Part shown: piece by piece, positions 7,482-45,285 of the stretch
Layout of the letters: every line of letters begins with the position of its first letter
Numbering within the stretch: the stretch's first letter is position 1
Assembly: GCA_963921795.1 (NCBI GenBank)
Contig: OY997642.1
Location: 58,450,927 to 58,514,926 of the forward strand
From: Nannobrachium achirus
Taxonomy: Eukaryota > Chordata > Actinopteri > Myctophiformes > Myctophidae
Direction of reading: 5' to 3'
Length of the DNA stretch: 64,000 nt
Notes under the pieces: generated by a model
The model's input: only the letters and a program-made list of their open reading frames with translations
Told to the model about the DNA's origin: nothing
The model's database searches: none
Program-made: the position numbers and the translations under genes

Positions 7482-7737
7482 ATGGCAACGTCTCTAGGTG
7501 TCTCCATTCACAGAATTCTGCAGGAGCTGGGAGAGGAGGACTTCAAAGTGTTCAAGGTGTATCTCGGTGATTATACATCCATCCCATGGTGCCAACTGGA
7601 CAAGGCTGACCGGGCGGACACCAGTGTTAAGATGAAGGAGACCTACCCTCAGACAGCTCTGGAGATCATAATGAGCATCCTGAAGGACATCAACAGGAAT
7701 GATCTAGTGCAGAGGTTTTCACCCTCGGTTACTGAAG
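7482..7737 (+). CDS. Exon with start codon: pyrin (PYD) domain, gene 1
   Basis: This exon encodes the N-terminal death-fold (PYD) adaptor module that recruits partners through homotypic PYD contacts in fish inflammasome-type proteins. An acceptor (TTTTTTTCTGACCAG) ends at 7472; the ATG in CAACCATGGCAACG has a good Kozak context. The 85 codons contain IHRILQELGEEDFKVFKVYL, the PYD helix-1/2 pattern, then QLDKADRADTSVKM and ILKDINRNDLVQRF. The donor is GAAG followed by GTAACA at 7738, leaving phase 1. A second copy with the same architecture starts at 17981. Splicing to 9114 keeps the frame, so I chose that as the next exon. An upstream frame from 7455 is open but lies across the acceptor. The family is clear; the partner is not known. 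Confidence 0.8.
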
Positions 7738-7934
7738 GTAACAAGACTGCACTCTGACGAGGAGCAAAGTTGCGCATTTTCTTAAGTGTCTTTCTGTAAA
7801 CCCTCTAACATAGGTGGTTTCACAAAATGTTTAAAAAATTATATTATAGTAAAAAAAAGAAATAAAATCTAGAGACATAATCAAATATCCAATTTAAAAA
7901 ATATATATAAATATACATATAGCCAGAGTTAAAA

Positions 7935-8065
7935 TGACATAGATAATGACATCATCGATGACATCACTGATGACATCATCGATAATATCACTGATGACAT
8001 CACTGGATATATAACTATTATATGACATCACTGATGACATCATCGATGATATCACTGATGATGGA
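7935..8065. repeat. minisatellite with ATGACATCA core
   Basis: Repeats of GATGACATCACT and GATGACATCATC in an irregular tandem array inside the intron of gene 1. The core resembles a CRE/AP-1 half site, which may be coincidence. Confidence 0.75.
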
Positions 8066-8497
8066 GAGCAAACCGCGGTCGCGTCTTCTTTTTTCGGCCG
8101 TTTTTTGCGGACCGGGCATTCAGACCACCGCGTCCGCCTCGCCTCGCCGAGACCTATCCATAGAGGTCTTTCGTGTCCCTCTACGAGCCTCGGTTGGGGA
8201 GTTACATGCTAGACTCCTAGCCCAGTGTAAACACTGCAGTGTACTTCCTGAAGAGCTCAGCAGTGTATGATCTGGGCTTTGATTGGCCGGTAGGGAGACA
8301 CGTGTACAGAATGATGCATATGACGTAATTTTGCCGGGAAAAACAGCCCCGGTCACGGCCACCAGGGCTCAGTAGAACACATATAAAGAAAAGGCTTTGG
8401 GAGCTGAAATTAACAGAGTGGGGGTTCTAAAACTTTAGCGATTTAATAGTTAGGACAATTTTAAGATGTTTTATAAAAAAAGTTACATAGTATAACT
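8066..8497. mobile_element. truncated copy of a TTAA-type MITE
   Basis: It shares about 430 bp with 56520-57008, including CCGCGGTCGCGTC at the left, GATTGGCCGG in the middle and AAAAAAAGTTACATAGTA at the right end, where TTAA follows. The left terminus is lost and replaced by the minisatellite. It lies in the intron of gene 1. Confidence 0.8.
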
Positions 8498-9036
8498 TTA
8501 AGAGGCTTCAATGTGCTCCTTTAAGGATAATTATTGTTCCATGGAATATACAAAAAAAAATAATATGTAATATAATATAGTTATATGGCAAGTGCAGGTT
8601 ACACCAGGTTTTACAGCACCGAGGCCAGATCCATGCTGGTAGGGAACAGATGTGCTGAATCAGGATGAATGTTACCGCAATGAGATGTGAGAGCAGTGGT
8701 CGAGAGAACCACTATCATGGCAAATATATGATTACAGCCTTAAGCAGTTTAGGGTTAAATGAGAACATTTGACCTTAAGTTGTCATAATGTTGTGAGTAG
8801 TGCTACAGTACACAAGAAAAAGCCACTGTTAATATTCTCCTTTTCCTTTTGTTTGTGGGGAGATGACACGTATATATCCAGTGTCACTATGATAACATTT
8901 AAAGGACATGATGCAACTTGAATGTTTAATTTCCATTGGCTGGATAATTTGAATTCCCTGTTTTGTTTTTATCACATCCATGAACGCTCCATGCTGATCA
9001 ACTCCACAGTCTGTCACTAGTAGCCTTAATAACACA

Positions 9037-9039
<3 letters not shown>

Positions 9040-9112
<73 letters not shown>
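9040..9112. repeat. (CT)n microsatellite that forms the polypyrimidine tract
   Basis: About 36 CT units run directly into the acceptor CAG at 9111-9113. The repeat is therefore the polypyrimidine tract of the coiled-coil exon, and its length may vary between individuals. Confidence 0.9.
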
Positions 9113-9113
<1 letters not shown>

Positions 9114-9679
9114 GTTCGACTCCAACAAAGGTGGAACTCAATGAACGAGAGGAGCTTGACAAATCTGTTGAAATCTTGCAGAAGCAGGTCAAACTTGGGT
9201 TAGCCAAGCTTGATGAGATTAAAAAAACAGCTCAGATACTTGAAACTCACAAATCAGAGATGGCAGTCTATAGGAATTTTGAGTTTGAGATCACAATCAA
9301 AAAGCCAGTTCAAGTGGTAAAAGATGGAAAGTACATTTGGGAATACAAAGATGTCAAAGAAAAGCGAACAGTGAAAGAGTTGCGAGAAAAGTATGAAACA
9401 GCTTCAAAGAAGATGATGCTTGTTGAGAACACGATCGCTAAATTAAAATCTGATTATGATGACTTGCAGATGCAGGTGGTAAAACTAATGGAGCGTTCAG
9501 GCAAGGGTTTGAACAGACTGAAAGAGATCGCACTGAAGCCCAATCCACTTTCCATTCCAGAGTACATTGACCTGCTCATTGAGGGTGAGAAGTCTGAAGG
9601 CAAACCAGGTTTCATGGATCGCATTAAGTCCCTGAAGGGAGTGAGAGCAATGGCAGAGTACATGGCTAAGGTAGAATAG
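9114..9679 (+). CDS. Final exon: coiled-coil C-terminus of the fish GTPase family, gene 1
   Basis: The exon starts with two bases that complete the codon begun at 7737, then reads STPTK followed by VELNEREELDKSVEIL and runs 182 codons from 9131 to the TAG at 9677-9679. It is rich in Glu, Lys and Leu, with a predicted coiled coil across about the first 140 residues. The end, LKEIALKPNPLSIPEYIDLL then KPGFMDRIKSLKG, is a block I recognise from teleost AIG1-like P-loop GTPases. From memory of that family, a Cys-rich segment normally lies between the FEFEI and KYIWEY stretches and is absent here. The joined product would be 273 aa: PYD plus coiled coil, no GTPase. It could be an adaptor or decoy, or a remnant of a longer gene. 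Confidence 0.8.
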
Positions 9680-14960: not shown

Positions 14961-15855
14961 AAATATAAATAACTCTACTTTGATTGATCTAATTCTAACT
15001 AACAGACCATTCAAATACCCTTGTAGCGGGTATTTGCTCAAGGTGTTACGTGACCACCCTATAGCCTTTGTTAGATTGGCTAAAGGGACTAAAACAAAAG
15101 GGCGGGTGATTCAAAAACGCAATTTTAAAGTGTATAGAGACCAGGGGTTCTCACATGATTTAGTTAATTCTGGCTTGGACAGGGTCAATGCAATTCAAGA
15201 CCCTGACCAATAGTGCTTAATCAATTTATTACCATCTTTAATTCCGTCACAGAGAAACATGCTCCTAAGAATTACTCTAAAGAATTTTAGAGTAAAGAAA
15301 AAACAATCGAGTCCCTGGTTCTCGGCAGATCTTAAAGGACAACTTTGTTTTTTACAAGAAGGGTTCATATTTTAGATTGTAATTAGAGAAAATAAAGGAT
15401 GAGTGTTAAAATGTTTTACTTTACTGCTTTCTATAGTTTTTTTTAATGATTTTGATTTCAGTCGCTACTAGTAGGGACTGATATGGCTAAATATGTATTT
15501 TTACACACAATAAGCCCATTCCCAAGATGCACTACAATCTTTCATGGGCAGATGTGACTTATTGGGGCTAGTAGTGTTACTGTAACTAGTAATAAAGACA
15601 TTGCTAGCTTATTGTGTCTAAAAAGATTCATTTAGCCACTTGTACGAATGCCCCCACCCACTGAAATCAAAGTCACTAAACGTGCTAAAACGATAGAATG
15701 AAGTGAATGAAAACATTTTCCTTTCTCTTATTACAATCTATATGAACCCAAAGTTGTCCTTTAAAGAAGCCCTCTGTCCTAGAGATATGGCTTGGTCTAA
15801 AGCTAGAAGCTCTGGTGATCCAGTAGACTGGTCATCATTCAACATTTTCAGACTA
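14961..15855 (+). pseudogene. LINE remnant: region between endonuclease and reverse transcriptase
   Basis: The frame from 14980 contains IDLILTNRPFKY, DHPIAFVRLAKGTKTK and KRNFKVY, which I recognise from fish non-LTR retrotransposon ORF2, in the stretch after the endonuclease. The match resumes after a MITE at 15336-15760 with MAWSKARSSGDPVDWSSF and then fades. The stop after QDPDQ and the truncation on both sides show it is dead. Confidence 0.7.
15336..15760. mobile_element. TTAA-type MITE inserted in the LINE remnant
   Basis: The ends AGGACAACTTTG and CAAAGTTGTCCT are inverted and extend with gaps over about 35 bp (ATTACAATCTATATGAACCC at the right). TTAA lies on both sides (15332-15335, 15761-15764). 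Confidence 0.9.
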
Positions 15856-15860
15856 CGACC

Positions 15861-16708
15861 CCCCAAATAATCATATTTTAACTGGGGAACCCAGTTACCC
15901 TTACAGGCACTAAGAGTTGATGCATTACATTTTACTATGATGTCAGACGTCAATTTGCAAGTGTCTTGGCCATATATGGAGCATGGGGTCAGACAGACAG
16001 ATGGACATGAGCTGCAAGTTTTCGTACTAAATAGCGACTTATGGCAACAATGGAATCCCTGGCCTATTGTTCTAGTTCCAATGTTATTTTTCTTTGCCTG
16101 GGAAGTAGATACAGTAGTCTACTGTAGGAGTGATAAGTCATATTCGTAACAGTCAAATTGAATATAAAATATGTTACAGTATTTTGCATTCAGTGAACTT
16201 CATGTCCAAAGATTTTGTCTAAACATGACAAAAATCGGTACACATTATCATGGTCATGTGATCATGATGGATTTGTGAGATTTTTCATATTCCATCCTGA
16301 TTGGCTAAGATTTGCTTCCAAAGTTTGCATGAGTGGCCCTTTTTGGACAAAATGCCTCAAATGATGAATGTAACGTCCAATTGCCATGAAACTTTGCGCG
16401 CACATTCCCACTAAGCCAAGGAATAACCTCCACTCCACATTTTTCAAATCTCATCAGCCCACTACACTACACACTTTGGCCTATAACTCTTGAACCATAG
16501 GCCAAGGGTCTTCAACGTTGTCAGGCCAAGGACCCCTTAGTTGAGAGAAATAAAGAGGACCCCCAAGACCTTTTCAAAGATTCCACTTAGTTTCGTTGTT
16601 TGACAGCATAATCGTCAGTGTTTTGGATTCATGTCAATTTGTGTTTTCAGATATTTAACCACTTGAACCACATCAATACTTAATATACTTAATAAAACCT
16701 CTTTAGCC
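15861..16708. other. decayed repeat DNA
   Basis: Scattered fragments resemble nearby hAT termini, for example AAGGGTCTTCAACGTTG near 16504. No gene was seen. Confidence 0.4.
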
Positions 16709-16780
16709 GAAAACAGACGATCTACAAGCTCACAACACCTCGCAGCGTAAGGCGTTGTGAGATTGTAGATCGGCTATTTC
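16709..16780. repeat. palindromic unit, two arms
   Basis: GAAAACAGACGATCTACAAG then CTCACAACACC; the right arm is GGCGTTGTGAGATTGTAGAT then CGGCTATTTC. The arms pair over about 32 bp with a few mismatches. Confidence 0.85.
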
Positions 16781-16884
16781 AAATTGGCTGCCAACTAGGG
16801 AAGCTTGTGTTTGGTGTTGAGGGACATATGTGGCCAGAACTTTGGAAACTGTAACGACGTTAAGTTAATACACACAACAGCCTA

Positions 16885-17262
16885 GACCAGAGGTTCCCAA
16901 ACTTTTTTGTCTCAGGGCATCCCATAAATATTTTTTTTTATCTGAGGCACCCCTACATTATCATTTTCACTCCCAGCACCTTATATTTATAGCATATCGT
17001 CGTTGTTGGGTGGAAACCTTGTATGTCCAAAACCGTTTGTTTTGTATTTATCATCTATAAAATGTACTAAACTAGTGAAAACAGCAGATCTCAAGCACGC
17101 AACGCCTCGCATGTGCTCGGCTGTTTTCACTAGTTTTGTGCGACAGAGGTTTCTGCCCGACAGTGACGATATTTTAGTGATTATGTTGCGAGGAAAACGT
17201 TGAGATAATAGCCATTTTGGTTAGAACTGACTGAAAATAACTTTGTACTTCAAGTTTAAAAG
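16885..17262. mobile_element. inverted, decayed copy of the 12154-12491 hAT MITE
   Basis: It starts with AGAGGTTCCCAAACTTTTTT and ends in TTTGTACTTCAAGTTTAAAA, which is the reverse complement of sequence at 12270-12305. A palindromic unit is inserted in it at 17073-17132. Confidence 0.75.
17073..17132. repeat. palindromic unit, two arms
   Basis: TAGTGAAAACAGCAGATCTC and a loop with AACGCCTCGC, ending GGCTGTTTTCACTA. It is followed by GTTTTGTGCGACAG, the same 3' flank as the unit at 27587. Confidence 0.8.
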
Positions 17263-17344
17263 TGCCCTGTCACCCACTTTTTTTTCTCCAAAAAAGTGTA
17301 GTTAAAATGTGTTTTTTATGTGGCCACGCCCACCAGTTCATTAA

Positions 17345-17831
17345 AAGGATCCCTGGCTAATATGACAAATATGCCTTAATATATTATAATTGTCCTCTAT
17401 AACTACAATGTAAAATTAAAAACACCTAAATTATTTTATTTCTTCTAGAAATAGCTAATCTTTCACTCAATAGGGGAAATGCCTGTCGCAAGTTGATGAT
17501 GTCATAAATGTCATGTGTGATATGTCCCTATGGAATCTATGGCATGCATGTGCAAAAAACACATTTGAAATATTGATTTGATGCTCATATTAACCATAGG
17601 AAGTAATAAGTTTGTCTTTATTTGCACATCATGCCATAAATTCCATAGGCATAGATCACACATGACATTTATGACATCATCAACTTGCGACGGGAATTTC
17701 CCCTATTGAGTGAAAGATTAGCTATTTCTAGAAGAAATAAAATATTTAAGGTGTTTATAATTTTACATTGTAGTTATAGAGGACAATTATAATGTATTAA
17801 GGCATATTTGTCGTATTAACCAGGGATCCCT
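17345..17831. mobile_element. foldback MITE with about 215-bp arms (TTAA)
   Basis: AAGGATCCCTGG at the left pairs with CCAGGGATCCCT at the right and the match continues for about 215 bp per arm, through AATTGTCCTCTATAACTAC and CTAGAAATAGCTAATC, to a small central loop. TTAA flanks both ends (17341-17344, 17832-17835). It ends 140 bp before the PYD acceptor of gene 2. Confidence 0.92.
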
Positions 17832-17980
17832 TTAAGTAGCCTATGCCTGGTTGTAATGGTGGGTGGTGACCCAGCTGAAGTTAGCCACACCCACATGTGT
17901 TGGGTGAATGGTAAAAGGTGAGGGGATGATTATCTCCAGATAGAGTGATGTTGTTTCTCTGTTCGGACCAGGTATCGATC

Positions 17981-18260
17981 ATGGCAACGTCTCAAGATGT
18001 CTCCATTATCAGAATTCTGCTGGAGCTGGGAGAAGAGGACTTCAAAGTGTTCAAGGTGTATCTCTGTGAATATAAATCCTTCCCCTGGAGCCAACTGGAC
18101 AAGGCTGACCGGGCGGACACCAGTGTTAAGATGAAGGAGACCTACCCTGAGACAGCTCTGGAAATAATAATAAATATCCTGAAGGACATCAACAGGAATG
18201 ATCTAGTGCAGAGGTTTTCACCCACTGGGTCTCCAACCAACGGTATATCTTACAGGCCAG
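17981..18260 (+). CDS. Exon with start codon: pyrin (PYD) domain, gene 2
   Basis: A second copy of the PYD exon, closely similar to 7482-7737. An acceptor (TTCGGACCAG) ends at 17971 and the ATG lies in GATCATGGCAACG. The 93 codons include IIRILLELGEEDFKVFKVYL and then QLDKADRADTSVKM and ILKDINRNDLVQRF. Compared with copy 1 it has a longer tail, SPTNGISYRPG. The donor GGCCAG followed by GTAGGTCAAG at 18261 is near consensus and leaves phase 1; a weaker donor at 18243 has the same phase. The next open acceptor on this strand is at 18747 and leads into a CARD exon in frame. Confidence 0.82.
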
Positions 18261-18442
18261 GTAGGTCAAGAGAAGTTAGACACTCCTAGGGCCCTAACCC
18301 TAAATATCTACATATTCCTTGGGAAGTGTACATTCATGTTCTGTACCAGCCGTGACTGTATTCTCTCCCTATCAAACGAGGTCAAGCTAATACGCGACTT
18401 TGTCTCTCAACGAGCGAGCGGTGGGGCTTTTTTCCATGCATG

Positions 18443-18522
<80 letters not shown>
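18443..18522. repeat. (CT)n microsatellite in the intron of gene 2
   Basis: About 40 CT units between the PYD and CARD exons, about 225 bp before the CARD acceptor. A different acceptor is used here, so it does not serve as the polypyrimidine tract. Confidence 0.95.
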
Positions 18523-18524
<2 letters not shown>

Positions 18525-18747
18525 TCATCAAATTATTGGCTTAGGAATGTGACAAAAAATAAATAATCTCCTTAATTGAATTCAAGGGCGTCTAATCTAT
18601 GCAAAACACATACTTTTATTGGGTGAACTACTCCTTCTAATATTGGCACACCAGTACCTCACTGGACTGTCATTTAGTGTCACATCTGTTGCCTGTACGA
18701 CTCAAACCAGAAAACCTCCCCCCTTTGCCCCCTCCCTTCTCAAACAG

Positions 18748-19094
18748 CGGACAACAACGTCTTCCACTCCCCGCCCTCGCCGGGCCCCGCCGCCCGCTGG
18801 ATCGCCGAGCGCCGGGAGGAGATCGTCTCGCATATGACGGAGGCGTGCCTCAACCAGAGCCTGGACGCGCTGCTGGCGCGCCAGCTCCTCATGGTGGAGG
18901 ACTACGAGCTGGTGCAGGGCCGGCCCACGCGCACCGCCAAGGTGCGCCAGCTGCTGGACACGTGCGGCCGCCACGGCGAGGGCTTCTGCCGCGTGGTGGT
19001 CCGCAAGCTGCAGGACAACCGGCAGTTGAGGCTGCAGCCCTTCCCCTCCGGCCTGTGCTCCCCTTTTCACAGCGAAACGTCGCGGTGCCTCTGA
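18748..19094 (+). CDS. Final exon: CARD of RIPK2 type, gene 2 (PYD-CARD protein)
   Basis: CARDs are death-fold modules that bind other CARDs in NOD and caspase pathways. This exon follows the acceptor CTTCTCAAACAG. Its first two bases complete the codon from 18260, giving the linker [12 protein letters not shown] and then a [48 protein letters not shown] and LQPFP, ending in a TGA at 19092-19094. These blocks match the RIPK2 CARD as I know it, more closely than the CARDs of ASC or caspase-1. No kinase domain lies in the window. The exon is strongly GC-rich, unlike its neighbours. The joined product is 208 aa, PYD then CARD, the layout of the adaptor ASC. Alternatives: an isolated exon of a ripk2 gene elsewhere, or a decayed copy. 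Confidence 0.78.
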
Positions 19095-19504
19095 AATTGA
19101 CGCAGTTTGCCTAGTGACTCAGGCCTCTGACGTGGGTGGTTAGGCTAAGATATGGCCTCGTCAAGATATGGCCCCGGGCCTTTGACGACCCCGGAGCAGC
19201 TGAGTGGCCCTGCGGAGCCACGCACTCTGCTGAAGAAAAGGAACAAGCGTGGTGGACGACTGTATGTGTGCCAAAAGGCACTTGAATCAGTGTCCACTTA
19301 ACATAAAGTACTCGAAAATAGCAACATTTTCAAAAAATAGCAAGTCAGGGAGTCGTTTGTAGCAAAACCAAGTGTGTTTTATTTCACCTTTTCAGTGTCC
19401 AGGTATTAGAGAGCAAAAAGGCACCGCACCAACATTTATTTACAATCTCACTGGCCAGCAGTTGCTATAAGGTCTTCCCTCGTCCACAGTTCTTATTAAT
19501 TATT
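19095..19504 (+). other. 3' flank of gene 2
   Basis: No clear AATAAA was found; an ATAAAG lies near 19303. No further exon is visible. GCTATAAGGTCTT at 19463 recurs at 19938, bracketing the element below. Confidence 0.4.
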
Positions 19505-19933
19505 ATTACCCGGCTTGGTTGAATGCTTGATTCTGATTGGTCGAGCGCTGAAATCAGCGGTGAATTATGAGCGTATAATGACCGCTCCGCTCTATAATTC
19601 ACTGCTGCCTAATCAAAGGCTCAAAGCAGCTGCTGTATTCAGGCTGCACTGCATGGATTTCGTGCCTTATCCAACATTCAGCCATGTAAACAAACACACA
19701 GCGACATTTACAACCAAACGTTGCTCTGAAGAATGTCTTTAAAAACATTTGAGACGAGAAATAGACGACGCAGTAACAGAAATGGATTCTATTTGATCAG
19801 CACTTCCTTGTTTTCCAAGGCGACCATGTTACGCTCGGGGGGACACACTTTCAGCCGTCTGTAAACAAGGAAACACTTTGTTTTGATTTTAGTTTTGAGT
19901 CAAATTATCAATTTTATGTATTAGCCGGGTAAT
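19505..19933. mobile_element. small DNA transposon with ATTACCCGGCT ends
   Basis: ATTACCCGGCT at the left and AGCCGGGTAAT at the right are perfect 11-bp inverted repeats around 407 bp. The interior (GATTGGTCGAGCG, then GTAAACAAGGAAACAC) has no convincing gene. No target duplication was identified. Confidence 0.7.
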
Positions 19934-19940
19934 AAGTGCT

Positions 19941-20072
19941 ATAAGGTCTTGCTGCGCGGTCATTATGGCTTATATGGACACTTCGGGCTGATAATTCCCC
20001 TCGGCTCCGCCTCGGGGAATTATTACCCCGTCGTGTCCATATAAGCCATAATGGCCGCGCAGCAAGACCTTA
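19941..20072. repeat. long palindrome around a GC-rich loop
   Basis: ATAAGGTCTTGCTGCGCGG and onward at the left is matched on the opposite strand by the right end (CCGCGCAGCAAGACCTTAT). The arms are about 40 bp, the loop about 50 bp, with its own CCCCTCGGCTCCGCCTCGGGG hairpin. Confidence 0.85.
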
Positions 20073-20977
20073 TCGCATACATAACTGCCTGAGCAGTGGC
20101 AGGTCCCCCTTGTTATAAAGGCTAAGCCCCTCCCACTGGACCATACCAACTCTGAATTGAATCCACAATTATACATAAACCAGAATCTTTCCATGTCCAT
20201 AGACAATAATTCAGACACAACTAAAGTGCCCTCACATTTTACAGTACTTGAATTACCCACACCACTATAATTATAATTAACTAACCCAATTTTACACTTT
20301 ACACAAACTTAACACTTTAACCCTATAAACCCTAAAGGTTGTGGTTGCATGAGCACAGGTGTGCATGCTCCCTACACTGGCGTCAATGCAATCAATGAAA
20401 CATCAATACAAACACACAAATATCATTCTTTGTAACACACAATATAGTGAAATTCAAACTTGTCTGTTAAAAGTATGTCAGTGGCAGGGTGAATTGCCAC
20501 AAAGACTTCGCAGACCTGGGAAAGGAAGTCAACAGACTGCTGCTGATATCTCTGCTCCCTGATGCAGTCGGCCACCACAACTTCCTCTTGTTCAATGACT
20601 TGCCAGCATGCAGTCTAATCTGATGGCCTTTTTGTCACATGATCTATTGCTGGGACATCAGCTGAAATGTTTAGAGAAGCAATCCCATATTAGGTTTGTC
20701 AGATGTAATGAACATTGTTTAAAGAGGTGGTGCCATAGTTTTTGTAGGCCTGTATGTATATGAGTCATTCCACGAAACCGGTACGATTTGAGGTCCCACT
20801 AAACTTTTTAGGTGTAGTATCTATCCGGTCACTAACATTGATTTTTAAATGCTTTTTATCAACAATTGAAATGTTCCCTTTAATATTGTGTAAAGCCTTT
20901 TTTTAGTAGACACCACCTATTTTGTCAATTTATTCATGTCCCAGATGGCCGCAAAGGAGTTAATGTTACTCTAATTA
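20073..20977. other. no gene seen
   Basis: Apart from a repeat-like stretch beginning AGTCATTCCACGAAACCGG near 20763, I see nothing that can be assigned. Confidence 0.4.
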
Positions 20978-21302
20978 GCCTTATTCACAGTCCACCCACT
21001 CAGCATCCCCCGGGTGCTAAAGTCACATTTTGAAGGGGAAAATCCTACTATAGCCTATAGAGTTAACACAGAAATCGCAAATGTAATGCAATTTCCGAAT
21101 AGTAAAGTATAAAATACGGCTAGCATGATCAAGAACACAAGATAGTAAAAGGCACAAAGCATTATAATTTACTTTACCGCTCAAAATAATGATTTGTTGG
21201 CTTTAAGTCCAGCTATTTCTGTTATAGTTTCCCCTTCTAAATTGATGTCAGCACCCGGGGGATGCTGAGAAATTTGCTGAGTGGGCGGGCCGTGAATAAG
21301 GC
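20978..21302. mobile_element. Harbinger-like MITE with TTA target duplication
   Basis: GCCTTATTCACAGTCCACCC at the left pairs with GGGCCGTGAATAAGGC at the right, and the match resumes inside at CATCCCCCGGGTGCT. TTA flanks both sides (20975-20977, 21303-21305), as for PIF/Harbinger elements. Confidence 0.8.
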
Positions 21303-22436
21303 TTATAGACCCCCAAGTGTGATTATAATATGCAAATATGTCTTCCCTGTATATTTTTGTCAAAAGGCCTGATTGAAACACATAGATATAACTAGAACTG
21401 CACTCTGTCAAGGTGCCAACTTGTGGCTTGAGCACAAGTAGGCCATGTTTGGCCACGAGTGCAAAAGTTAGCACCTCGAAAGAGTTCAGTATTGTTCTTT
21501 TCTGGGGGAGCGGGTGTTTGGTAGAGAAGCTTGTGTGAGGTGCCACGTGTTTGTCCCCTTGAGCTTCTCCCGTTGTAGCTCTCTCCCATTAGTTCCTGTT
21601 GGTGACCAGACTGCAGAGAAGTTGCAGAGCCATATTGAATTTTGCTGTATTTGGCTAGAATCTTGGCATGCATGATCTAGTAGTTAAATAAACAAAGAAT
21701 TCTATCAGCTTTTTTTTTGCTCGGTCACATAATCCAGTAAGGCAATCCAAATTTAACATTCAACCAGAGATTCTGGAGAGCCCTTGGTTAAATCATTGTC
21801 TGGGGATATGTTATCTATGTCTGAGCCGGGCACATGATATTGAGGACCTCGAGATTGGGGTCCGTTGTCTGTCTTACCAGAAATTCTGCCTTTTCATATA
21901 TTTTGGTATTATTGCTAAAAGCCTGTATTAGCATAAAGTGTTAAATAAAAATCCTTTTCTGCAAGAAGAGGATTTGTTTATTTCTTCGAACGGAGTCAAC
22001 GGACCTTCTGGTCTGATCTTATCACCGGACAAAATGGTGAGTGAAAGAGTACGCAACAGTTGTTGTATAAATAGATCTGGGCATTTTCTGTGTGTTTCCT
22101 GAACAGAGAGGTTTACAGTTTCACAGTTACACTTGGTCTGAAAACGTCTCCGTGTCAGGCATGCTTTATCTGGTGTGCAGCAGCATTCCTACACATACTG
22201 TAGATCCATTTGGAATAAAGGTACTTTTAATATAATGGTATTGGACATGCAAGGTTTCCACCTGACAATGACGCTTTATGAAAGACCAGTCCAGAGAAGA
22301 AGGCATGAGAAACTCACCACCCTGATGCCGTCACGTGATTTTACCACAATATGTATTTCACCATATTTCAGTATTATTTGAAGACACTATGAGTACACAG
22401 AAGTCAAGCATTTATCACCTCAGCTTTGGGCCAAAA
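21303..22436. other. no gene seen; possible LTR-like segment near 21.9-22.04 kb
   Basis: A segment with GTTAAATAAAAATCC at 21940 leads to GGACAAAATGGTGAGTG at 22027-22043, an ATG directly followed by a donor-like GTGAGT. This could be an LTR end or a cryptic first exon. No partner was found. Confidence 0.3.
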
Positions 22437-26486: not shown

Positions 26487-27448
26487 CTAAATTATTCGTC
26501 TGGACCTGGCCTGCCTTTTTCCGATGACATCCTTTGTCAAAGCCTTGGCCTGTGCCATCATGTTCAAAGTTTCGAAAAAGCTCTTCATGCTTTTGAAACC
26601 CATGTCCCAAGATCTCTTAACAAAGGTGTCATCTTCGTCCTCCTCCACATCACCATCAACAACATCACCACCATCCTCATCCTCATCACATACACCTGCA
26701 TTGTTTGCACCAGGTGATTTGTTGGCTGCAAACAATGCATAATTGTTGAATTTGAAATTAAGTGGCTTTCCTTCTTTCGTGGGACACGGGACCCCCGAGG
26801 CTAGGATTGCATGAAGGACCGGTGGGGCCTGACCATCTGCAAACGTCACCAAAACCCTGATGTTCTTTTTTATGTCTTTGCCAAAGATTGAGAACACAGT
26901 GTCAAACACACATTTATGTGTGGCTGTGAGCCGTGCAAGAGAGGCCTGAGTCACAAAGCAAACTGCGTCAATTTTAGAGACACCATGTTTCGCTGTGAAA
27001 AGATCGATCAGACGCTTTGTGATCGGCCTGTCTCTATCTTTTCCCCGAGTGTTTCCAAAACCTGGTGTGTCAATGATGGTTAGTGAATAGCCAATCCGAA
27101 ACCCTTCTTGGTGGTTAATTTTGTACACAGTGATTTCAGATGTCTGACTCTCAGCCTGATCGTTTCTTTTACATTTTGTTTTCTCGTCATCTAACCTGAA
27201 CCGAAAAGAATCCCCCCATTTGACACCGAGGATGTAGTTGATCATCCCATTGACGAGGGTGGACTTTCCTGACCCAGTCGCTCCAATGAGCATTACGGTG
27301 CGATTCCGCCTCGTGCTTTTCTTGCCCAAACTGTAGCTCCTGCATCCATCAATGTCCAACTTGTTATTCTCCAGAGGCAGCTTGTAAACCGACAGCGACC
27401 CTGAATGTATCAGTTTGTCTCCATGTCTGTAGCATTCAGCTGGACGTT
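26487..27448 (-). CDS. Final exon: AIG1-like P-loop GTPase domain
   Basis: The exon encodes a GTP-binding domain of the AIG1/GIMAP-like class, expected to act as a cytosolic molecular switch in immunity. From the acceptor (CTCTCTCAG, ending at 27449) it reads RPAECYRHGDKL, then the P-loop GATGSGKST at 27284-27258 (residue about 186 of the joined protein), the DTPGFG box at about 257, and VTFADGQ as the G4-like box at about 332. An acidic run (CDEDEDGG, then VEEDEDD) precedes FKSMKSFFETL. In related proteins, as I recall them, the sequence continues from LTKDV into a coiled coil; here it ends LTKDVIGKRQ followed by a short unrelated tail and a stop. It is either truncated or joined to an unseen exon. 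Total predicted length with the two upstream exons is 450 aa. Confidence 0.85.
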
Positions 27449-27449
27449 C

Positions 27450-27461
27450 TGAGAGAGAGAA

Positions 27462-27512
<51 letters not shown>
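27450..27512. repeat. (GA)n on +, (CT)n polypyrimidine tract for the GTPase exon on -
   Basis: About 30 GA units with a few interruptions abut the acceptor. On the gene strand this is a CT tract directly before CAG, as in gene 1. Confidence 0.9.
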
Positions 27513-27586
27513 ATTGATCAGTGCTGATCACAGTTATTGAGAGTTAACCCTGAAAGGGTTAACTTAATAACAAAATTATTTAAAAT

Positions 27587-44198: not shown

Positions 44199-45285
44199 AC
44201 CCTCAGAGGGACACTGTGGGCACTTTGAGAACCACCACGGACCACTTGACAAGCCCACAGTGTCCCTCTGAGGGTCCTCCGACCTCACTTTGAGAACCAC
44301 CACGGACCACTTGACAAGCCCACAGTGTCCCTCTGAGGGTCCCCCGACCTCACTTTGAGAACCACCACGGACCACTTGACAAGCCCACAGTGTCCCTCTG
44401 AGGGTCCCCCGACCTCACTTTGAGAACCACCACGGACCACTTGACAAGCCCACAGTGTCCCTCTGAGGGTCCTCCGACCTCACTTTGAGAACCACCACGG
44501 ACCACTTGACAAGCCCACAGTGTCCCACTGAGGGTCCTCCGACCTCACTTTGAGAACCACCACGGACCACTTGACAAGCCCACAGTGTCCCTCTGAGGGT
44601 CCTCCGACCTCACTTTGAGAACCACCACGGACCACTTGACAAGCCCACAGTGTCCCTCTGAGGGTCCTCCGACCTCACTTTGAGAACCACCACGGACCAC
44701 TTGACAAGCCCACAGTGTCCCTCTGAGGGTCCTCCGACCTCACTTTGAGAACCACCACGGACCACTTGACAAGCCCACAGTGTCCCACTGAGGGTCCTCC
44801 GACCTCACTTTGAGAACCACCACGGACCACTTGACAAGCCCACAGTGTCCCTCTGAGGGTCCTCCGACCTCACTTTGAGAACCACCACGGACCACTTGAC
44901 AAGCCCACAGTGTCCCTCTGAGGGTCCTCCGACCTCACTTTGAGAACCACCACGGACCACTTGACAAGCCCACAGTGTCCCTCTGAGGGTCCTCCGACCT
45001 CACTTTGAGAACCACCACGGACCACTTGACAAGCCCACAGTGTCCCTCTGAGGGTCCTCCGACCTCACTTTGAGAACCACCACGGACCACTTGACAAGCC
45101 CACAGTGTCCCTCTGAGGGTCCTCCGACCTCACTTTGAGAACCACCACGGACCACTTGACAAGCCCACAGTGTCCCTCTGAGGGTCCTCCGACCTCACTT
45201 TGAGAACCACCACGGACCACTTGACAAGCCCACAGTGTCCCTCTGAGGGTCCTCCGACCTCACTTTGAGAACCACCACGGACCAT
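44199..45285. repeat. 65-bp satellite, 17 units
   Basis: CACTTTGAGAACCACCACGG recurs every 65 bp from 44221 to 45261, with almost no variation between units (CCTCTG/CCACTG and CCTCCG/CCCCCG are the main differences). A 23-bp inverted piece of the unit (CCTCAGAGGGACACTGTGG) starts the array. On the other strand the unit begins GGTGGTTCTCAAAGTGAGG, which resembles a hAT terminus. Confidence 0.97.

Follow-up and report, generated by a model that had tools for sequence, protein, structure and literature searches.

We begin by considering the DNA of the locus itself. The window (the whole stretch of DNA analysed, 64,000 nt, C5:58450927–58514926 in a fish assembly of 1.66 Gb and 564 contigs) holds a predicted PYD exon, called PYD-B below, and downstream of it a predicted terminal CARD exon (Table 1). 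Read directly, the sequence from 17972 to 19094 matches its description in an earlier note, according to which the two exons join in frame to give a product of 208 aa with the layout of ASC, PYD then CARD. The coding part of the PYD exon (17981–18260) has 280 nt, that is 93 codons plus 1 nt, and ends in the donor CAG/GTAGGT (the slash marks the exon end); the acceptor of the CARD exon reads TTCTCAAACAG up to the junction and CGGACAAC beyond it. Both exons are open, donor and acceptor are both in phase 1, and the joined coding sequence of 627 nt confirms the 208 aa, with a single terminal stop and none internal. The start context at the ATG, with A at -3 and G at +4, is a good one.

Table 1. 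Features of the PYD–CARD locus and its surroundings (positions are those of the window; the slash in a donor marks the exon end)
Feature	Position	Strand	Remarks
PYD-A exon, sister copy	7482..7737	+	donor AAG/GTAACA, phase 1; Pfam PYRIN 1.7e-17
Terminal coiled-coil exon downstream of PYD-A	9114..9679	+	phase 1
Foldback (self-palindromic) repeat, MITE-like	17341..17835	.	495 nt; just upstream of PYD fragment
PYD-B fragment (extent of similarity to PYD-C)	17955..18282	+	91% over 328 nt to PYD-C at C5:58541661, minus
Predicted first coding exon (PYD)	17972..18260	+	ATG 17981, donor GT at 18261, phase 1
Decayed older donor ACG/GTATAT	18243..18244	+	same phase as new donor
Predicted intron	18261..18747	+	487 nt, with CT microsatellite
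ripk2-b terminal exon (CARD) fragment, copied together with the 3' splice site	18742..19063	+	~320 bp
Predicted second, terminal coding exon (CARD)	18748..19094	+	stop 19092-19094
AIG1-type GTPase gene fragment abutting CARD fragment	19063..19128	+	66 nt; 88% to window GTPase, minus strand, 26940-27002
AIG1-type GTPase half of GTPase–coiled-coil gene, without its coil	26490-27527	minus	CT microsatellite precedes

The PYD fragment directly adjoins repeats, since the foldback repeat lies just upstream of it and 17842–17931 matches another locus of the genome at 91%. The foldback repeat aligns with its own reverse complement at 88% (self-comparison) and recurs at 94-96% in at least 39 other genomic places (of 3092 candidates, 40 were scored). 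The 5' neighbour of the PYD-B fragment is a repeat, and neither a promoter nor an exon was identified upstream. On the other side, 19137–19260 and 19270–19494 match many other genomic places, and neither AATAAA nor ATTAAA occurs within 1.9 kb past the stop, where the nearest variant is CATAAA at 19302. Part of the predicted intron (18530-18646) resembles three other places at 79-81%, and Rfam gives no match over 15000–22000. Elsewhere in the window, a tandem array with a period of 65 nt and about 99% identity occupies 44221-45284 (self-comparison).

The ASC-like layout is borne out by Pfam, which assigns PYRIN to the first exon (1.1e-16, 61.2 bits, cut-off 22.9) and CARD to the second (1.3e-13, 51.2 bits, cut-off 23.9). 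Against the sequences of solved structures (PDB), the CARD matches RIPK2 at 1.8e-35 (124.9 bits) and far more weakly NOD1 (4.8e-4), caspase-1 (0.0087) and ASC (0.12), in agreement with the RIPK2 parentage given to it in the earlier note. For the PYD, the best matches are NLRP PYDs (NLRP14 1.9e-6; ASC 0.48). A quick protein tree with 35 rows (one of 36 was removed, the anchor motif being absent) places the window CARD in a single clade with the CARDs of the two ripk2 genes of this genome (SH-aLRT 100), inside a 16-row teleost set. By these comparisons the CARD is RIPK2-type and not ASC-type. A structure model of the CARD was mediocre (pLDDT 71.5, pTM 0.34) and was set aside.

Origin of the CARD exon and of its tail

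A six-frame genome search with the CARD exon, in which all 134 candidates were scored, gives nine matches at E <= 0.001. Three of the nine are strong: the window itself, C5:57124215 (plus strand, 87% aa) and C5:52716217 (minus strand, 87% aa). The remaining six are only 26–31% identical. Four dispersed CARD exons (C19, C20, C16, C21), about 100 aa long, are closely alike and not RIPK2-type, with a looser relative on C4. With a Coilia RIPK2 protein as query, two ripk2 genes are found on C5: ripk2-a at 52.716–52.736 Mb (minus strand) and ripk2-b at 57.103–57.125 Mb (plus strand). In each gene, six matches on the kinase side follow one another in the expected order, and a CARD exon belonging to that gene lies 6-7 kb from the last of them. 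Query residues about 222–235 and 326–447 are without a match in either gene, and the stops listed inside three of the 12 kinase-side matches each lie at the first or last residue of the match, in intron overhang. The two genes differ in their C-terminal tails, with a dS of 0.04 between their CARD exons. In the first kinase exon, ripk2-b (C5:57103085) reads SRWRFGTVF and ripk2-a SRGGFGTVF; given this altered glycine-rich loop, the ripk2-b kinase may be impaired.

The bona fide ripk2 locus, for which the earlier note had proposed to search the assembly, is therefore present twice. This bears on the outcome by which that note said its reading would fall, namely that the CARD exon is the true last exon of a ripk2 gene with kinase exons outside the window. 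The start and the 3' splice site of the window exon are indeed those of the ripk2-a and ripk2-b exon. Both sets of kinase exons, however, own a CARD exon close by, and the nearest set lies 1.35 Mb off. A tblastn search with nine RIPK2 proteins (four with kinase sequence) and a human RIPK2 kinase probe gives no credible kinase match outside the CARD in the 64-kb window, and the similarity to ripk2 ends at 19063. This alternative is excluded in the assembly as it stands, and we consider its chance very slight; the candidate that the window exon is ripk2 itself is rejected for want of a credible kinase match in the window. Since the two ripk2 genes have their own CARD exons elsewhere, the window holds a third copy of the RIPK2 CARD, one without a kinase, on the same chromosome as its parent, ripk2-b.

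The fragment is 94% identical to ripk2-b (C5:57124207-57124528) and 93% to ripk2-a, so that capture from elsewhere, as first proposed, now has a parent. Agreement of phase is by itself a 1-in-3 event; it is the 94% DNA identity to a ripk2 exon of the same genome that makes the arrangement more than chance. The two ripk2 genes align with each other past the exon too (616 nt, 91%), and the match of the window copy is limited to the exon. The copy carries the acceptor AG and, judging the alignment by eye, part of the pyrimidine tract, which is weakly similar as far as about 25 nt ahead of the exon. Its phase is probably inherited from ripk2, because in three other fish RIPK2 sequences the same exon also starts with an Ala codon whose first base comes from the exon before (by eye). 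The GC content of the CARD exon stands out as the earlier note had said (70.3%, against 46.8% in the PYD exon and 44.6% in the intron; GC3 0.96 against 0.58), but it is inherited from the ripk2 parents, since over 297 nt ripk2-b (71.7%) and ripk2-a (71.4%) are as GC-rich as the window copy (72.7%).

Could the fragment have been misplaced by the assembler? Over 297 nt the window copy shows 15 differences from ripk2-a and 15 from ripk2-b, and the flanks around it in the 76-Mb contig are its own. This rules out a misplaced duplicate of one or the other gene, and we regard an assembly artefact as highly improbable. Amid the 15 differences from ripk2-b, 133 nt at 18834–18966 are identical to ripk2-b (gap p about 0.002), a stretch that may be a gene conversion tract.

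The confinement of the similarity to the exon would also be expected of a retrocopy of ripk2 mRNA. The copy, however, begins a little ahead of the intron-exon junction and so includes the acceptor AG as well as some of the pyrimidine tract; the match contains no upstream ripk2 exon sequence; and after the break there is a piece of a GTPase gene and not a poly-A tail. A retrocopy is thus given hardly any weight.

The similarity to ripk2-b stops exactly at 19063, where the GTPase match begins. At the protein level, a 22-residue stretch of this GTPase scrap compares with LFTAKHGVSKIDAVCFVTQAS; the predicted protein reads the scrap out of frame, giving its last ~12 residues and the stop. The corresponding GTPase half in the window and a coil half of the same GTPase–coiled-coil family (the exon downstream of PYD-A) lie on opposite strands, which suggests local rearrangement. 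A simple inversion splitting one GTPase–coiled-coil gene is a candidate explanation that we do not adopt, since a short overlapping motif is, by eye, common to both halves. The locus is a recent fragment capture and not a misread ripk2.

The PYD exon family and its other partners

We turn our attention to the PYD exon. A genome search with PYD-B gives 63 matches, the four best of which cluster on C5 within about 102 kb: with PYD-B at 100%, the identities are 84% for PYD-C (minus strand), 80% for PYD-A and 73% for PYD-D, and the fifth best match has 49%. PYD-B and PYD-A are 91.6% alike over 17962-18223. The likeness of PYD-A and PYD-B to the other copies mostly ends within some tens of bases of the exon; PYD-C and PYD-D have long downstream blocks in common.

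The four copies differ at the splice donor. Scored with human donor position weights, the older donor position has 3.95 in PYD-B, 7.06 in PYD-A and 9.33 in PYD-C and PYD-D (AAG/GTAATT). The new donor, which lies 18 nt further on and keeps the phase, is found only in PYD-B and scores 10.21; of all GT sites in the window, 0.33% reach 10 or more. PYD-D is two substitutions short of this donor (by eye). Although a post hoc observation, this exchange of donors in the same phase is the strongest indication that the use of PYD-B in splicing may have been maintained.

Other members of the family precede other exons. PYD-A and the coiled-coil exon (7482-9679) would together encode a predicted protein of 274 aa; a CT microsatellite lies directly before the coiled-coil exon, which is similar in sequence to the C-terminal half of open frames of the GTPase–coiled-coil type elsewhere (nearest 61–62%). 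Outside the window, 90 kb from the PYD–CARD locus, the PYD-D exon is followed 2326 nt downstream by a TIFA exon (C5:58560044-58563227), in phase 1 and with a predicted product of 286 aa. The TIFA exon matches FHA at 2.8e-7 and solved TIFA at 2.2e-25, and its protein is 91% identical to C14:15517610 and 85% to C14:15520521, the likeness to the former running over several DNA blocks past the exon. The C5 copy has an acceptor AG that is absent in both C14 copies, and GTG replaces their first ATG, with another ATG 15 nt on. Over the first 143 codons its dN/dS against the two C14 copies is 0.16 and 0.14; the TIFA pairs are under purifying selection, on which branch the ratio does not say. Among the matches of the PYD genome search none lies on C14. 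PYD-C, for its part, precedes a broken TIFA copy that retains the ATG.

From its sequence, PYD-D with TIFA is a candidate fusion; it is a stronger case for function than the PYD–CARD locus and adds to the interest of the latter. A more general reading is that one PYD exon family (C5:58.46–58.56 Mb) has repeatedly been set before terminal exons of other immune genes (the NF-kB adaptor exons RIPK2-CARD and TIFA, and the coiled-coil exon), all joinable in phase 1, and that PYD sensing would thereby be rewired to NOD–RIPK2 and ALPK1–TIFA without a new receptor. We put this forward as a speculation, more probably wrong than right.

Constraint and predicted function

Combining the information on the three pieces, we describe the locus, almost certainly correctly at the level of DNA, as a young chimera built by fragment capture from a PYD exon, a CARD fragment of ripk2-b and a GTPase scrap. 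Behind one of four recently duplicated PYD exons, at a distance of 487 nt, sits the copied piece of the last ripk2-b exon; the fragment came with its own 3' splice site, and the GTPase scrap supplies the shifted tail and the stop of the predicted product. The youth of the locus (dS about 0.06 to ripk2-b) leaves the parents, the breakpoints and the order of events still legible.

The next question is whether the chimera yields a product. Over 99 codons, the CARD copy and ripk2-b differ by a dN of 0.049 and a dS of 0.062 (ratio 0.80); the ratio is 0.70 against ripk2-a and 0.45 between ripk2-a and ripk2-b. Over 80 codons of the PYD, dN/dS of PYD-B is 0.71 against PYD-A, 0.58 against PYD-C and 0.68 against PYD-D, with a dS of about 0.1 to copies A and C; it is 1.32 for A with D and 1.24 for C with D, and A and C have eight nonsynonymous and no synonymous differences. 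These values give no sign of constraint on the chimera. With indel rates assumed at 0.08–0.14 per substitution, a simple simulation of neutral change puts the survival of the open frame at 0.12–0.30 for the CARD, 0.09–0.20 for PYD-B and 0.004–0.024 for PYD-D against C. Under this model, intact CARD and PYD-B frames are not improbable under neutrality.

It is accordingly conceivable that the locus is a dead or silent mosaic, in which gene fragments have come to lie next to each other in an immune gene cluster that is rich in repeats and rearranging, and the frames are open from youth, with no product. The dN/dS values of the CARD copy and of PYD-B, the fusion of the CARD fragment to a GTPase scrap, the repeats on both flanks and the neutral survival of the frames, which is not small, all fit such a mosaic. 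They have to be weighed against the replacement of the PYD-B donor in the same phase, the joint preservation of both exons and both splice sites, and the constraint on the sister TIFA copy. We give the silent mosaic a shade under an even chance. That the chimera is spliced as predicted and makes the 208-aa PYD–CARD protein is our preferred but tentative reading, held at slightly below even odds.

If the predicted exons are transcribed, they would be spliced into a small bifunctional adaptor, whose PYD would enter PYD assemblies and whose RIPK2-type CARD would co-polymerise with the CARDs of RIPK2 and NOD. The human RIPK2 CARD forms filaments, with interface residues given (PMC6255760) as R444, E445, D492, Q458, D461, Y474 and K471 for type I, D495, Q497, E472, D467, N449, T452 and K513 for type II, and T479, E475, K471, E472, R483, T482, T484 and R488 for type III. 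Mapped by eye, counting from W439 on a gapless alignment to solved RIPK2, the window CARD retains R444, E445, Q458, D461, Y474 and D492 at the type I interface (six of the seven so listed), E472 and T452 at type II (two of seven), and E472, E475, T482, R483, T484 and R488 at type III (six of eight). The changes K471V, D467Q, T479G, N449S, Q497H and K513R are common to the window CARD, ripk2-a and ripk2-b; D495G is private to the window copy. The retained interface residues make co-assembly with RIPK2 or NOD CARDs plausible, and the changed type II surface, mostly also found in the parents, would speak against simple equivalence to human RIPK2.

Such an adaptor could act as a bridge, seeding RIPK2 filaments from PYD sensors, or as a brake, filling RIPK2 filaments with kinase-less subunits. 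Given expression, we would place the bridge slightly ahead of the brake, because the sister PYD exon likewise precedes an NF-kB adaptor module, TIFA. If expressed, the locus would provide an ASC-shaped adaptor through which PYD sensors reach RIPK2 rather than caspases. Taken with the PYD–TIFA arrangement of the sister exon, it would then exemplify the rewiring of innate pathways through the movement of single terminal exons. Even silent, it shows that ready-made acceptors and phase-1 introns let a death-fold exon test new partners.

Comparison with known systems

Protein searches give no relative with the same domain pair. Among proteins of about 114–364 aa, none of 69 matches (281 candidates) to the fusion has a PYRIN label; 21 of the 69 sequences were inspected, and query coverage is at most 56% except in one at 83%, by eye a Danionella RIPK2 fragment without a PYD. 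A second fusion search returns RIPK2-type proteins, with no PYRIN label among the best 120 of 674 matches. For the PYD–TIFA fusion, proteins of about 260–830 aa yield three matches (1779 candidates), TIFA-type and without a PYRIN label, and the one compared with PYD-B does not match it. The literature as searched by titles and abstract starts, with few subscription papers covered, names no PYD–RIPK2 or PYD–TIFA protein.

The closest parallel in layout is ASC/PYCARD, a bifunctional adaptor with PYD then CARD in about 200 aa, an order that the predicted splice product would repeat. The window locus differs in its RIPK2-type CARD, in a PYD nearest to NLRP PYDs, and in consisting of two young captured exons rather than a conserved pycard gene. 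With the terminal exon of RIPK2 it has in common the sequence, the start and the splice acceptor; unlike RIPK2, it has neither kinase nor linker, its C-terminal tail is replaced and a PYD stands in front. Like COP/CARD16, INCA/CARD17, ICEBERG/CARD18, POP1 and POP2, it is a young, lineage-restricted partial copy of inflammasome genes. CARD-only and PYD-only proteins are described as products of gene duplication or retrogenes, with decoy roles for the COPs (PMC3775265). The predicted product differs from COPs and POPs in joining two death-fold domains of different parents, and from the CARD-only decoys in that the CARD parent is RIPK2, not caspase-1, and a PYD precedes in frame, so that it is not a single-CARD protein. 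Finally, exon shuffling among fish immune genes has a precedent in the zebrafish NLR-B30.2 genes, for which PMC4852459 reports that exons are shuffled both inside and across immune gene families and that some groups have death-fold N-termini. In contrast to those genes, the window locus has no NACHT or B30.2, and the partners of its PYD family are downstream adaptors, the RIPK2 CARD and TIFA.
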